Translations under genes and position numbers: made by a program
Shown here: piece after piece, positions 1,514 to 10,807 of the stretch
Layout of the letters: each line of letters opens with the position of its first letter
Position numbering within the stretch: the first letter of the stretch is position 1
Assembly: GCF_017368815.1 (NCBI RefSeq)
Contig: NZ_JAFNME010000006.1
Location: 1 to 64,000, forward strand
DNA: 64,000 bases
Direction: 5' to 3'
Source: Comamonas denitrificans
Lineage (GTDB): Bacteria; Pseudomonadota; Gammaproteobacteria; Burkholderiales; Burkholderiaceae_C
The notes under the pieces: model-generated
What the model was told of the DNA's origin: nothing
The model's input: only the letters and a program-made list of their open reading frames with translations
Databases searched by the model: none

Positions 1514-2626
1514 TTATGCCTTGAGCAAGATGCGCAGCATGCGGCGCAGCGGCTCGGCCGCACCCCACAGCAGTTGGTCGCCAATCACAAAGGCCGACAG
1601 GTACTGTGGCCCCATGTTCAGCTTGCGCACGCGGCCCACGCCCACTTGCAGGCCGCCGGTGATGCTGGCCGGGGTGAGCTCTTGCACGGTCAGGGCGCGG
1701 TCGTTGGCGACGAATTTCACCCAGGGGTTGCCCGCTTGGATGAGTGCTTCAATCTCGGCCAGGGGCAGGTCTTTTTTCAGCTTCAGCGTCAGGGCCAGCG
1801 AGTGGCAGCGCATGGCGCCGATGCGCACGCACAGACCATCGACGGGGATGGTGGTGGGGGTGCCCAAAATTTTGTTCACCTCGGCCTGGCCCTTCCACTC
1901 TTCTTTGGACTGGCCGTTGTCCAGTTGGGAGTCAATCCAGGGAATCAGGCCACCGGCCAGCGGAGCGCCAAAGAACTCGGTCGGTACATCGTGGCGAATG
2001 GTGTGCGCCACCTGGCGGTCGATTTCCAAAATAGCCGATGCGGGGGTGGCCAGCTTGTCGGCCACGGCGTTGTGGATAACGCCCATGCCTTTGAGCAGTT
2101 CGCGCATGTGGTTGGCCCCACCGCCCGAAGCAGCTTGGTAGGTCATGGAGCTGACCCATTCGACCAACCCGGCCTTGAACAGGCTGCCCACGCCCATCAG
2201 CAAGATGGAGTTGGTGCAGTTGCCGCCAATCCAGTTTTTGCCGCCAGCGGCCAGTTTTTGCTCGATCAAATCCTGGTTCACGGGGTCGAGGACGATGACC
2301 GCATCGTCCTTCATGCGCAGCGCCGAGGCGGCATCAATCCAGTGCCCATTCCAACCGGCGGCACGAATTTTGGGGAACACTTCGTTGGTGTAGTCGCCAC
2401 CCTGGCAGGTGATGACGATGTCGCATTTGGCCAGCTCGGCAATGTCGTGGGCATCTTTGAGCTGGGTGTGCGTTGTGGCCATGGCCGGGGCTGGGCCACC
2501 GGCGTTGGAGGTGGAGAAGAACACCGGTTCAATCAGGTCAAAGTCACCCTCGGCCTGCATGCGCTCCATCAAAACGGAGCCGACCATGCCGCGCCAGCCA
2601 ACCAGGCCTACCAATTGCTTGCTCAT
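1514..2626 (-). CDS. asd: Aspartate-semialdehyde dehydrogenase
   Basis: This enzyme reduces aspartyl phosphate to aspartate semialdehyde with NADPH, the branch point to lysine/diaminopimelate and to threonine, methionine and isoleucine. The 370-residue length fits the gammaproteobacterial-type Asd. Visible features are the N-terminal nucleotide-binding loop [11 protein letters not shown] (7-17) and the catalytic cysteine in GGNCTNS (C137). An AAAGGG Shine-Dalgarno precedes the ATG at 2626. A strong terminator follows it. It is preceded by a leader ORF rich in Thr and Ile codons and by competing hairpins (2646-2834), so expression may respond to charged tRNA-Thr and tRNA-Ile. The later threonine-branch genes hom and thrC lie about 5.5 kb away on the other strand. 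Confidence 0.96.
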
Positions 2627-2645
2627 AAATTGCCCTTTCGTGTGT

Positions 2646-2720
2646 GAAAACAGGTGTGAAAACGGCCGTCTGTTTTCGTCCGGCTCGCCGGGCCGGTTCT
2701 ACGGGCACACGACGAACCGG
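2646..2720 (-). promoter_or_regulatory. Candidate attenuator hairpins in the asd leader RNA
   Basis: Reading the minus strand after the leader-peptide stop codon, segment A (2720-2714, CCGGTTC) can pair with segment B (2699-2693, GAACCGG). Segment B overlaps the first arm of a second stem, CCGGC (2696-2692) with GCCGG (2684-2680), so the two stems exclude each other. A third inverted repeat, GAAAACAG (2677-2670) with CTGTTTTC (2653-2646), follows just before the asd ribosome-binding site. The geometry resembles an attenuator. There is no long U-run, so the final step could be Rho-dependent or act on translation. Confidence 0.55.
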
Positions 2721-2726
2721 GTTGGA

Positions 2727-2834
2727 TCAGCCGGTAATCGTGGTGGTTGTAATGGTGGCACGCACCGCAGTGCCCAGCAGGGGCTGCTGGACAGAGAGAA
2801 GGATGGGGTGCGTGGAGAACATAACGGCATGCAT
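2727..2834 (-). CDS. Putative Thr/Ile-rich leader peptide of asd (35 aa)
   Basis: A 36-codon ORF on the minus strand ends in ATITTTTITG-stop. It has eight consecutive Thr or Ile codons (six Thr, two Ile) placed directly before the final Gly and the stop. This closely resembles the E. coli thrL leader, whose Thr/Ile run senses aminoacyl-tRNA supply for the thr operon. It lies about 100 bp upstream of asd in the same direction, and mutually exclusive hairpins follow it. Two further short hairpins (2757-2774 and 2775-2789) fall inside the leader coding sequence. The start may be 2834 (MHAV) or the in-frame ATG at 2822; neither has a strong Shine-Dalgarno. The function is inferred from the codon run and position. 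Confidence 0.7.
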   Translation of the reverse strand: MHAVMFSTHPILLSVQQPLLGTAVRATITTTTITG

Positions 2835-2954
2835 TCTAGAGGAAACCCTGGGCGGCAGAATATCCACTATGGCGGTATCAATCGTCGAAATGACGAAAAA
2901 ACCCCGTTAATTTTGCCGAATTGCAAATTGCAGCGCCCACTGGCCCTGGACGAT

Positions 2955-3356
2955 CTAGCGCAAAAAGCTGTAAATGCCCAGTCCCAGCGTACTGCCTGCA
3001 AGAATGGCGCAGGCCCAGGCCAAGCGGGTGGCACCGGTGCGCAACAAGCCCACGGTTTCTACGATGCGGGCTTGTTGCTCGGCCATTTGCTCGATCACGG
3101 CAGCGCTGGCTTGCTGGGCGTGTTCCAACTGGTCGATGCGCTTTTGCAATTGGATGATGTGTTGCAAGGCCAGCTCACCAGCATCGGCCGGCGTGCTGGT
3201 GACGGCCGATGAGGCGGGGCTGGGCGCGGGTGCCGCATCGTTTTGGGCCGGTGCTTTTTTCAGCAGCCCTTTGGCGGTTTTAATGACACTGGGGGCCGCT
3301 TCAATGACATCACCCCAGGGCACCATCTTCAGTGCCGTGATCCAAGGGATGGCCAT
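2955..3356 (-). CDS. Hypothetical coiled-coil protein with C-terminal membrane anchor
   Basis: The 133-residue protein is not one I recognise. It has a basic, amphipathic N-terminus, an Ala/Pro-rich linker (about 35-57), and a predicted coiled coil rich in Gln, Glu and Ala (about 60-105). One C-terminal transmembrane segment (about 108-130, AWACAILAGSTLGLGIYSFL) ends one residue before the C-terminus, so it looks tail-anchored with the bulk in the cytoplasm. It starts 3 bp after the phoH stop codon and is very probably co-transcribed with phoH. No catalytic motif is visible. Confidence 0.7.
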   Translation of the reverse strand: MAIPWITALKMVPWGDVIEAAPSVIKTAKGLLKKAPAQNDAAPAPSPASSAVTSTPADAGELALQHIIQLQKRIDQLEHAQQASAAVIEQMAEQQARIVETVGLLRTGATRLAWACAILAGSTLGLGIYSFLR

Positions 3357-8048: not shown

Positions 8049-9383
8049 ATGAAACCCATTCAAGTTGGCCTTTTAGGCATTGGCACCGTCGGTAGTGGCA
8101 CGTTTGCCGTTTTGCAACGCAACCAGCAAGAGATTGCCCGCCGCGCCGGGCGGGGCATTGAAATTGCCATGGTGGCCGATCTGGACGTGGAGCGCGCCCG
8201 CGCCATTGTGGGCGAGCAGATTCAGGTGGTGAACGATGCCCGCGCCGTGATTGCCAACCCCGATATCGATGTGGTGGTGGAGCTGATTGGCGGCTACGGC
8301 ATCGCCAAGGCGCTGGTGCTGGAGGCGATTGCCGCCGGCAAGCATGTGGTCACCGCCAACAAGGCGCTGCTGGCGGTGCATGGCACGGAAATTTTCCAGG
8401 CGGCGCATGACAAGGGCGTGGTTGTGGCCTTTGAAGCGGCCGTGGCCGGGGGCATTCCCATCATCAAGGCGCTGCGCGAGGGCCTCTCTGCCAACCAGAT
8501 CCAGTGGGTGGCGGGCATCATCAACGGCACGACCAACTTCATCCTGTCGGAAATGCGCGACAAGGGCTTGGACTTTGACGTGGTGCTCAAAGAAGCCCAG
8601 CGCCTGGGCTACGCCGAGGCCGATCCCACCTTTGACATCGAAGGTGTGGATGCCGCGCACAAGGCCACCATCCTGAGCGCCATGGCGTTTGGCATTCCGG
8701 TGCAATTTGACAAGGCCTACGTTGAAGGCATCACCCAGCTGGCCGCTGCCGACATCAAATACGCCGAGCAGCTGGGCTACCGCATCAAGCTCTTGGGCAT
8801 CACCAAGCGCACTGACAAAGGGGTGGAGCTGCGCGTTCACCCCAGCCTGATTCCGGCCAAACGCCTGATCGCCAACGTTGAAGGCGCGATGAACGCCGTG
8901 CTGGTACAGGGCGATGCCGTGGGTGCCACGCTGTACTACGGCAAGGGCGCAGGCAGCGAGCCCACCGCCAGCGCCGTGATTGCTGATTTGGTCGATATCG
9001 TCCGCCTGATTGATGCCGATCCGGCCCACCGGGTGCCGCCGCTGGCCTTCCAGAGCCACACCCTGGCGGCGGCGGCCGGGGCCTTGCCGGTGCTGCCCAT
9101 GGCCGAGGTGGTCACCAGCTACTACCTGCGCATTCGCGTGGCCGACGAGGCTGGCGTGCTGGCCCAAATTACCAGCCTGATTGCCGGTGCCAACATCAGC
9201 ATCGATGCGGTGCTGCAGCGCGAAGCCGATGAAATCGGTGGCGAAGGCATTGCGCAGACCGACCTGATCATCCTCACCCACGATACGCGCGAGGGCGACA
9301 TGGACGCGGCCCTGGCGCGTATCCAGGCCCTGCCTTCGGTGCTGGCCCCCATCACCCGCATTCGCAAAGAGGAGTTGAACTGA
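8049..9383 (+). CDS. hom: Homoserine dehydrogenase
   Basis: This enzyme reduces aspartate semialdehyde to homoserine, the committed step to threonine and methionine. The 444-residue protein has an N-terminal Rossmann motif GLLGIGTVGSG (7-17), the conserved THANKALL-like segment (VVTANKALLAVHG), the catalytic region GGIPIIKALREGL, and a C-terminal ACT domain (about 360-440), which in this family usually confers feedback control by threonine. It is monofunctional, without aspartokinase. Its stop codon overlaps the thrC start by one base (TGATG), so the pair is translationally coupled. Unlike asd, it has no Thr-rich leader ORF upstream. Confidence 0.96.
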   Translation: MKPIQVGLLGIGTVGSGTFAVLQRNQQEIARRAGRGIEIAMVADLDVERARAIVGEQIQVVNDARAVIANPDIDVVVELIGGYGIAKALVLEAIAAGKHVVTANKALLAVHGTEIFQAAHDKGVVVAFEAAVAGGIPIIKALREGLSANQIQWVAGIINGTTNFILSEMRDKGLDFDVVLKEAQRLGYAEADPTFDIEGVDAAHKATILSAMAFGIPVQFDKAYVEGITQLAAADIKYAEQLGYRIKLLGITKRTDKGVELRVHPSLIPAKRLIANVEGAMNAVLVQGDAVGATLYYGKGAGSEPTASAVIADLVDIVRLIDADPAHRVPPLAFQSHTLAAAAGALPVLPMAEVVTSYYLRIRVADEAGVLAQITSLIAGANISIDAVLQREADEIGGEGIAQTDLIILTHDTREGDMDAALARIQALPSVLAPITRIRKEELN

Positions 9384-10807
9384 TGCGCTACCTCTCCACC
9401 CGTGGCCACGCCGAGCGCAAACGCTTTTGCGACATCTTGCTCGAAGGGCTGGCCCCCGATGGCGGCCTGTACCTGCCCGAAAGCTACCCGCAAATCAGCA
9501 CCGAGCGCCTGGGGCAGTTGCGGCAGATGTATGCCGAACAGGGCTACGCGGCCCTGGCGTTTGAGATTTTGTCGCTCTACATCGACGACATTCCGGCCGA
9601 CGATTTGCGCGCGCTGTGCGCCAAAACCTATACCGAAGCCGTCTTTGGCAGTGCCGCCATCACCCCGGTGCGCCCGCTGGAAGGCCCGCTGCACATTCAG
9701 GCGCTGTCCAACGGCCCCACGCTGGCCTTTAAAGACATGGCCATGCAGCTGCTGGGCAACCTGTTTGAATACGAACTGGCCCGCCGGGGTGAAGCGCTCA
9801 ACATTCTGGGCGCAACCAGCGGCGACACCGGCAGCGCGGCCGAATACGCCATGCGCGGTAAAAAAGGCGTGCGCGTGTTCATGACCAGCCCCAACGGGCG
9901 CATGAGCCCCTTCCAGCAGGCGCAGATGTTCAGTCTGCAGGATGAGAACATCCACAACCTGGCCATCGAGGGCGTGTTTGACGACTGCCAAGACATCGTC
10001 AAGGCCGTCAGCAACGACCATGCCTTTAAGGCGCAGTACAAGATCGGCACCGTCAATTCCATCAACTGGGCGCGGCTGCTGGCGCAGGTGGTGTACTACT
10101 TTGCCGGTTATTTTCAGGTGACCCAAAGCGATACGGAACAAGTCAGCTTCACCGTGCCCAGCGGCAACTTTGGCAACGTCTGTGCCGGCCATGTGGCGCG
10201 GCAAATGGGCCTGCCGATTGCCAAACTGGTGGTGGCCACGAACGAGAACGATGTGCTGGACGAGTTCTTTCGCACCGGCGTGTACCAGGTGCGCGGCGCC
10301 GCAGCGACGTTTGAGACCTCCAGCCCGTCGATGGACATCAGCAAGGCGAGCAATTTTGAGCGCTTTATCTTCGACCTGGTCGGCCGCGATGGGGTGCGCA
10401 CCCAGGCCTTGTTTACCCAAGGCGTAGGCCGCGAGGGGCGTTTTGACCTGAGCGCCGACCCGGTGTTTGCCGATATCCAGGGCAAATTTGGCTTTGTTAG
10501 CGGCAAAAGCACCCATGCCGACCGCCTGGCCACCATCCGCGACAGCTACCAGCGCCTGGGCCAGATGGTCGATACCCACACCGCCGATGGCATCAAGGTG
10601 GCCCGCGAGCACCTGGGCACAGAGCCGATGGTGGTGCTGGAGACGGCCCTGCCCATCAAATTTGCCGCCACCATCGAAGAGGCCCTGGGCCGCCAGCCCG
10701 AGCGCCCGGCGCAGTTCAACGGCATCGAAGCCCTGCCCAAGCGCGTGCAGGTGCTGCCTGCCGATGTGGCGCTGGTGAAAACCTATATCGCCCAGCACTG
10801 CGATTGA
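9383..10807 (+). CDS. thrC: Threonine synthase
   Basis: It converts O-phosphohomoserine to threonine with PLP. The 474-residue protein has the PLP lysine in SNGPTLAFKDMAMQ (K117) and the phosphate-binding loop GATSGDTGSAA, and its length fits the long bacterial ThrC class. It follows hom with a one-base overlap. The homoserine kinase gene (thrB) is not in the window. The downstream gap to mobB holds a dispersed hairpin repeat. Confidence 0.96.
   Translation: MRYLSTRGHAERKRFCDILLEGLAPDGGLYLPESYPQISTERLGQLRQMYAEQGYAALAFEILSLYIDDIPADDLRALCAKTYTEAVFGSAAITPVRPLEGPLHIQALSNGPTLAFKDMAMQLLGNLFEYELARRGEALNILGATSGDTGSAAEYAMRGKKGVRVFMTSPNGRMSPFQQAQMFSLQDENIHNLAIEGVFDDCQDIVKAVSNDHAFKAQYKIGTVNSINWARLLAQVVYYFAGYFQVTQSDTEQVSFTVPSGNFGNVCAGHVARQMGLPIAKLVVATNENDVLDEFFRTGVYQVRGAAATFETSSPSMDISKASNFERFIFDLVGRDGVRTQALFTQGVGREGRFDLSADPVFADIQGKFGFVSGKSTHADRLATIRDSYQRLGQMVDTHTADGIKVAREHLGTEPMVVLETALPIKFAATIEEALGRQPERPAQFNGIEALPKRVQVLPADVALVKTYIAQHCD

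Follow-up and report, generated by a model that had tools for sequence, protein, structure and literature searches.

A conserved leader peptide with threonine, isoleucine and lysine codons upstream of asd in the family of Comamonas: a probable attenuator of translation initiation

Aspartate-semialdehyde dehydrogenase (Asd) stands at the branch point from which Lys (and the diaminopimelate of the cell wall), Met, Thr and Ile are made; these amino acids are the pathway products after aspartate semialdehyde. In the attenuation of E. coli pyrE the reader is the ribosome that ends rph, and UTP is sensed through the speed of transcription. In B. subtilis, translation initiation of rtpA (anti-TRAP) is reportedly controlled at a leader peptide, a finding credited to Chen and Yanofsky in 2004. 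The thrL-type attenuation of E. coli and Vibrio is presented, in the passages of PMC12925634 at hand, as relying on a Thr/Ile leader peptide with ribosome stalling as the sensor. Excerpts of three further papers give background on anti-TRAP (PMC4027176), place the start of the S. meliloti trpL mRNA at the leader ATG (PMC7298713) and assign the asd RNA motif RF01732 to the Lactobacillales (PMC2864571).

The leader analysed here precedes asd in a stretch of 64,000 nucleotides from Comamonas denitrificans, hereafter the window. With the rtpA leader, as that system is said to work, it would share control of the next gene's translation by codon stalling in a leader peptide; rtpA, in contrast, involves a single amino acid (Trp) and a regulator gene instead of a biosynthetic enzyme, and the two are set apart by description, not by sequence. 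The pyrE/rph case is similar in that the leader role falls to a structural gene upstream, as it would to LeuB in 14 of our loci, but pyrE is not regulated by way of specific codons. Like S. meliloti trpL, the asd leader is predicted to lie on an mRNA that starts at or near the leader AUG, whereas trpL works by transcription attenuation, has Trp codons and belongs to another organism group. The closest parallel in design is E. coli thrL (RF00506, transcription attenuation of thrABC), in which a short Thr/Ile leader peptide stands before aspartate-family genes and stalling is the sensor (PMC12925634, in the passages at hand); unlike thrL, the element described here would control asd, holds Lys codons as well, is probably leaderless or nearly so, has no RF00506 match and shows a terminator-like site in no more than 29 of the 129 elements folded. 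RF01732 is likewise named for asd but comes from another phylum and has no match at this element.

At the element, RF00506 (Thr_leader; gathering score 55 bits) gave no match. A weak RF00506 match of 20.5 bits at 3147-3039 lies inside the ORF upstream of the leader and was taken as chance; this ORF of 133 aa (2955-3356, minus strand) has no NCBIfam match. No family of Rfam 15 fits the element of the window, and none reaches the gathering threshold in six related loci. Among the literature matches listed, from a search with mostly non-subscription coverage, none describes an asd leader in betaproteobacteria, nor do the passages at hand of PMC8632094, PMC2965389, PMC1262725 (Actinobacterial leaders) and PMC10272879 (the Corynebacterium ilvB uORF).

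The leader ORF and its predicted promoter

The features at the start of the element and the gene behind it are as follows.

1514-2626, minus strand: asd, aspartate-semialdehyde dehydrogenase (TIGR01745, 655.8 bits, cut-off 402.9), the gene predicted to be regulated
2727-2822, minus strand: leader peptide ORF of 31 codons, MFSTHPILLSVQQPLLGTAVRATITTTTITG-stop; probably (near-)leaderless, with no Shine-Dalgarno (SD) sequence; its MF-type start recurs at the -10-linked AUG
2733-2756, minus strand: sensor run, ACC ATT ACA ACC ACC ACG ATT ACC (T I T T T T I T)
2833-2838, minus strand: TAGAAT, the predicted -10 box for leader and asd, corresponding to a -10-like box that is conserved among the leaders

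A first-pass annotation of this DNA had proposed a leader of 35 codons ahead of asd that begins at AUG 2834 and ends in a run of Thr and Ile codons. The minus-strand ORF 2834-2727 (MHAVMFSTHPILLSVQQPLLGTAVRATITTTTITG-stop, terminating ATITTTTITG-stop) lies upstream of asd, its stop is 100 nt from the asd AUG (2626), and the run is real: eight Thr/Ile codons stand in a row at 2756-2733, and the run is kept in 74 of the 80 family loci examined. The start codon has to be moved. AUG 2834 overlaps the -10-like TAGAAT, and the start conserved in the family is the in-frame AUG 2822, 12 nt downstream, which leaves 31 codons.

Scanned on both strands, the window holds one single ORF of 10-80 codons with at least six Thr/Ile/Lys codons among some eight of the final 12; in 20 copies of the window generated by a second-order Markov model, the averages were 0.45 ORFs with six of eight, 0.05 with seven of eight and none with eight of eight. 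The identities of hom (8049-9383, plus strand) and thrC (9383-10807, plus strand) were confirmed, and the scan found no leader with a Thr/Ile/Lys run for either of them, in agreement with the earlier claim that asd has such a leader and hom-thrC do not. Upstream of lysC, dapA and hom there is no Thr/Ile/Lys-run ORF on the strand of the gene.

Start sites were compared in the 118 distinct leaders that have an AUG of their own; where several in-frame AUGs were available, the one with the MF-type motif (MFSTHP... in the window) was chosen. A TAnnnT box ends 6-10 nt upstream of the leader AUG in 114 of the 118, compared with a mean of 1.8% at other offsets, and the stricter TANAAT/TANCAT occurs at the same spacing in 111. 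Given this spacing, the mRNA is probably leaderless or nearly leaderless, with transcription starting probably 0-6 nt before the leader AUG. The mean duplex with the anti-SD before these AUGs is -0.78 kcal/mol (-0.90 for shuffled sequence), as against -4.83 before the asd AUGs. A two-hexamer scan of the window returned no promoter-like site, so a -35 element would be weak or absent. An mRNA starting downstream of the run, an objection that the first-pass annotation had raised to its own proposal, is not what the sequence suggests.

Conservation and distribution of the element

The asd gene was found in 146 of 149 relatives, and its upstream region was examined in 90 of the 146 (loci L001-L090). 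By a fixed rule (a B/anti-SD motif, a C motif and a stop after GGC, AGC or GAC; segments B and C are defined below) the element is present in 74 of the 90 loci, that is in 74 of 80 from the window's family and in none of ten from other families. The family loci missed by the rule are L005, L033, L065, L083, L082 and L087: no element was seen before asd in the first four, a diverged copy is visible in L082, and in L087 (G087:C18) a covariance model places the element further upstream, about 600 nt before asd. L005 and L033 belong to the window's genus, and L005 has a different inverted repeat at the site. The ORF between leader and asd in L087 looks by eye like an acetyltransferase. When asd upstream regions are aligned, as the first-pass annotation had advised, the run is conserved and much of the remaining peptide drifts; loss of the run in close relatives, which would have spoken against a leader, is thus not what we see.

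A covariance model of the element core (R1) matched 239 of 299 family genomes in 120 of 141 genera (E 0.01), although 11 of the 239 matches have E values above 1e-4 and could be due to chance. Among 300 genomes of the order, nine strong matches (at least 47.8 bits) all fall in the window's family; nine weak ones lie outside it, the best with 26.7 bits, and the single locus inspected among these (L135) has no asd. In all 37 strong-match loci inspected (L091, L099-L134) asd is directly downstream, some of these genomes having been used to build the model. Within the genome of the window itself, 18 matches up to E 10 were obtained, of which the asd copy alone is strong (71.7 bits) and the next has 21.2 bits. 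The latter (L092) overlaps the end of an ORF that looks by eye lipoprotein-like and was taken as chance; no asd was found at the weak-match loci L092-L098 of this genome.

In a pattern scan of named genomes, among the matches listed, 112 of 120 precede asd (74 of 80 and 38 of 40), and a Thr/Ile/Lys run leads up to the called stop in 111 of these 112. The run is degraded in L216, and the stop call of L252 gives another reading. The other eight of the 120 listed stretches contain no asd, the match in L151 being at the stretch edge. Named carriers include Comamonas, Acidovorax, Hydrogenophaga, Limnohabitans, Variovorax, Ramlibacter, Simplicispira, Tepidimonas and Diaphorobacter. By these sequence comparisons, the asd leader is conserved beyond the window and family-wide. 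Two records titled Akkermansia and Anaerolineae MAG (L175, L137) hold a family-type asd with the leader and are probably mis-binned contigs.

Predicted competing folds, run codons and the probable level of control

After the leader stop, the elements follow each other in the order B, anti-SD (GUGCGCCC type), CCGGC, C, H4, SD (GAAAGGGCG type) and asd AUG. In the window they are:

2727-2732, minus strand: terminal GGC (Gly) and UGA stop, part of a small hairpin H1 (GGCU/AGCC) in most relatives
2711-2720, minus strand: segment B, CCGGUUCGUC, 5' arm of the predicted ON hairpin H2; it would be partly covered by a ribosome at the leader stop
2701-2710, minus strand: anti-SD segment GUGUGCCCGU, whose core UGCCC (2707-2703) can pair with GGGCA (2635-2631)
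2692-2696, minus strand: H3 5' arm CCGGC; predicted OFF-fold partner GCCGG (2684-2680)
2680-2689, minus strand: segment C, GGCGAGCCGG, consensus GACGAGCCGG; predicted to pair with B in the ON fold and with the H3 5' arm in the OFF fold
2646-2677, minus strand: hairpin H4, GAAAACAG/CUGUUUUC, from the window fold with a ribosome at the stop
2631-2638, minus strand: asd Shine-Dalgarno region AAAGGGCA

In an alignment of 64 rows, 95.8% of the H1 cells and 96.6% of the H2 (B:C) cells are paired; the window's own H1 is weak, with AACC replacing AGCC. RNAalifold recovered H2 alone from the whole alignment. Covariation in B:C is slight (9 cells, 8 of them of the CUGG/CCAG type) because the bases barely vary.

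Each of 129 distinct elements was folded computationally after taking out the nucleotides covered by the ribosome, whose A site was placed either five codons before the stop (stalled) or on the stop. With the ribosome stalled, the means are 6.34 B:C, 1.84 H3 and 2.49 anti-SD:SD pairs and an SD openness of 0.424; with the ribosome at the stop they are 0.61, 4.44 and 5.96 pairs and 0.311. Upon stalling, B:C pairs are higher in 125 of the 129 elements, anti-SD:SD pairs lower in 114 and higher in 15, and SD openness higher in 100 and lower in 29; an initial calculation of SD accessibility, in which the footprint was 15 nt, showed a similar but smaller trend. The window's own sequence yields both computed folds. 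Thus, in the model, ribosome position picks between two competing folds, as in attenuators, and the anti-SD is predicted to pair with the asd SD mainly when the ribosome is not stalled, as in translational attenuators. These folds exclude pseudoknots, so that H2 and anti-SD:SD pairing are mutually exclusive by construction. The ribosome-free fold is ON-like, with H2 favoured (6.15 pairs), and the OFF state would accordingly need a ribosome near the stop, or kinetics. We also considered whether B might be held in the OFF state by a helix A:B, in which ACGACGA of the run pairs with UCGUCGU, but H2 still keeps its 6.15 pairs without a ribosome; our explanation therefore relies on the ribosome at the stop.

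The anti-SD:SD pairing is specific to its partners. Shuffling the 20 nt before the asd AUG reduced the pairs from 5.96 to 1.63, the cognate sequence exceeding the shuffled one in 115 of 129, and swapping anti-SD and SD between species weakened the duplex (z -3.42, -3.44 and -3.58 for 74, 57 and 30 hand-chosen sequences, respectively, a test that relatedness inflates). Relative to L002, the closest relative by Asd identity, the window has a C-G to U-A double change in this pairing, but the pair next to the anti-SD core is a C.A mismatch in 21 of 118 scorable elements and a compensated U-A in the window alone. Outside Comamonas (e.g. L138, L136, L174), H4 often holds GUCUGGUC, which is complementary to GGCCAGAC at the anti-SD/C junction, and the two pair in some OFF folds.

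Combining these data, we consider it likely that the element is a ribosome-mediated asd attenuator that senses whether tRNA-Thr, tRNA-Ile and tRNA-Lys are charged and works mainly at the level of asd translation initiation. In this model, (i) the promoter would place the mRNA 5' end at or a few nt from the leader AUG; (ii) with plentiful amino acids, the ribosome at the leader stop would cover the 5' part of B, C would pair locally (H3), the anti-SD between B and H3 would pair with the asd SD, and asd would be off; (iii) with Thr, Ile or Lys in short supply, the ribosome would stall on the run, B would be free as C is made, and the long B:C hairpin (H2) would hold the anti-SD in its loop, leaving the SD free and asd translated; and (iv) in those lineages whose upstream leuB ends in the run, sensing would fall to the ribosome that completes LeuB. 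The model predicts high asd expression from a leader lacking its AUG, opposite to classical attenuation, as the ribosome-free fold is ON-like.

What the ribosome would read was assessed in 133 distinct leaders (of 148) from the eight codons that directly precede the one for the terminal residue. Of these 1064 codons, 975 specify Thr, Ile, Lys or Met (527 Thr, 235 Ile, 206 Lys, 7 Met), so that on its sequence the leader is an upstream short ORF with codons for the products of the pathway it would regulate, the arrangement of ribosome-mediated attenuators. The first-pass annotation had linked the leader to tRNA-Thr and tRNA-Ile; codons for both are in the run, and across the family Lys has to be added, although the window's copy has none. 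A thrL-like sensor of Thr and Ile only, with the Lys codons arising from neutral drift of ACG/ACA to AAG/AAA, would fit with Thr being the commonest residue and with the window's Lys-free run, but we regard it as improbable: Lys fills almost a fifth of the run codons yet just 1.9% of the preceding 16 codons, which are also far less enriched in Thr (10.4%) and Ile (4.9%), and codons for Asn or of the AGN type are all but missing from the run. The codons for Thr, Ile, Lys and Met all start with A. Asn, Ser and Arg make up 1 of 976 ANN codons in the run (Asn, as AAC/AAT, once and AGN never), whereas in the accompanying asd genes their share is 2462 of 11767 (20.9%). Since RNA pairing alone should allow Asn, Ser (AGY) and Arg (AGR), their near absence argues that the run is under selection at the amino-acid level. 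For Ile, the run uses ATT 155 times and ATC 80 times, whereas the asd genes favour ATC (2147; ATT 439), and the Lys codon AAA is over-used. The same selection, together with the in-frame LeuB fusion in 14 loci and the fixed distance of the AUG from the -10-like box, makes it very improbable that the ORF is untranslated, its coding look being incidental to a protein- or metabolite-binding RNA element, even if the bases of B and C rank among the best conserved and several positions are invariant.

The main alternative keeps the same sensor and differs in the output, which would be transcription termination as in E. coli thrL, either by an intrinsic terminator at H4 or by Rho acting on the untranslated stretch; an asd mRNA that is not being translated would be accessible to this factor. 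A hairpin with a T-rich tail occurs in the 29 elements noted above compared with 2.9 in mononucleotide shuffles, in all 29 after segment C (H4), and the H4 region averages 5.7 pairs when the ribosome is stalled against 7.1 when it is at the stop. Stalling costs this region more than one pair in 49 of the 129 elements and adds pairs in 11, which is the direction that regulated termination needs. Also, thr leaders are known to work by transcription attenuation (PMC12925634, in the passages at hand). On the other hand, the H4 region shifts by at most one pair in 69 of 129 elements, the conserved hairpins H2 and H3 are not followed by a T-tract, and 100 of 129 elements have no terminator-like site by the same rule; as this last result combines with anti-SD:SD pairing that is specific and general, we favor control of translation initiation and consider termination as the output unlikely, if still the strongest competitor. 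In the window, a consensus scan of 2500-3100 for a classical terminator gave one site, inside asd, and none before the asd AUG. Of the thrL design put forward in the first-pass annotation, the leader peptide with amino-acid codons stands as far as the sequence goes and the mechanism appears to be different, with no Thr_leader match, a predicted alternation between SD sequestering and SD freeing, and few terminator-like sites.

If the model holds, a single leader that reads several end products would be an integrated sensor of a branched pathway, and the element would be a family-wide case of amino-acid attenuation in proteobacteria that is translational, not transcriptional.

LeuB fusions and Asd lineages

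At 14 loci (11 from the rule-based set and three from Ramlibacter: L056, L068-L070, L072, L074-L076, L078, L080, L086, L184, L201 and L205) the run forms, in frame, the C-terminal end of LeuB. Two of these fused genes were tested and match TIGR00169 (leuB) with 496.7 and 494.1 bits. Fused LeuB proteins extend 11-21 residues beyond the conserved G-D-A-V-type motif, with ends such as AITTTTKTIKS, compared with 4-8 residues for 95 other LeuB ends in the same set of loci. A quick Asd tree, rooted by midpoint only, requires seven changes between the fused and the free state, at least two of which are forced by well-supported branches, suggesting that fusion or release occurred more than once on this tree.

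The same tree separates two lineages of Asd. The Asd of Comamonas, Tepidimonas and others groups, on starred branches, with the Asd of other families that lack the element, and the Asd of most family members belongs to a different lineage, about 63-73% identical to that of the window. Both lineages (L001-L057 versus L064-L087) sit behind the same leader. The simplest reading of this quick, midpoint-rooted tree is that the leader was kept through replacement of the asd gene, or was transferred. Taking these observations together, we tentatively suggest, giving the idea slightly less than an even chance, that one translational attenuator watches Thr, Ile, Lys and occasionally Met, that it stands as a leaderless mini-gene before two asd lineages, and that more than once it was built into, or released from, the tail of LeuB, whose last codons would then serve as the sensor for the next gene. 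The LeuB fusions give a sequence-level view of a regulatory peptide becoming part of an enzyme, and the attenuator cassette spans about 200 nt.
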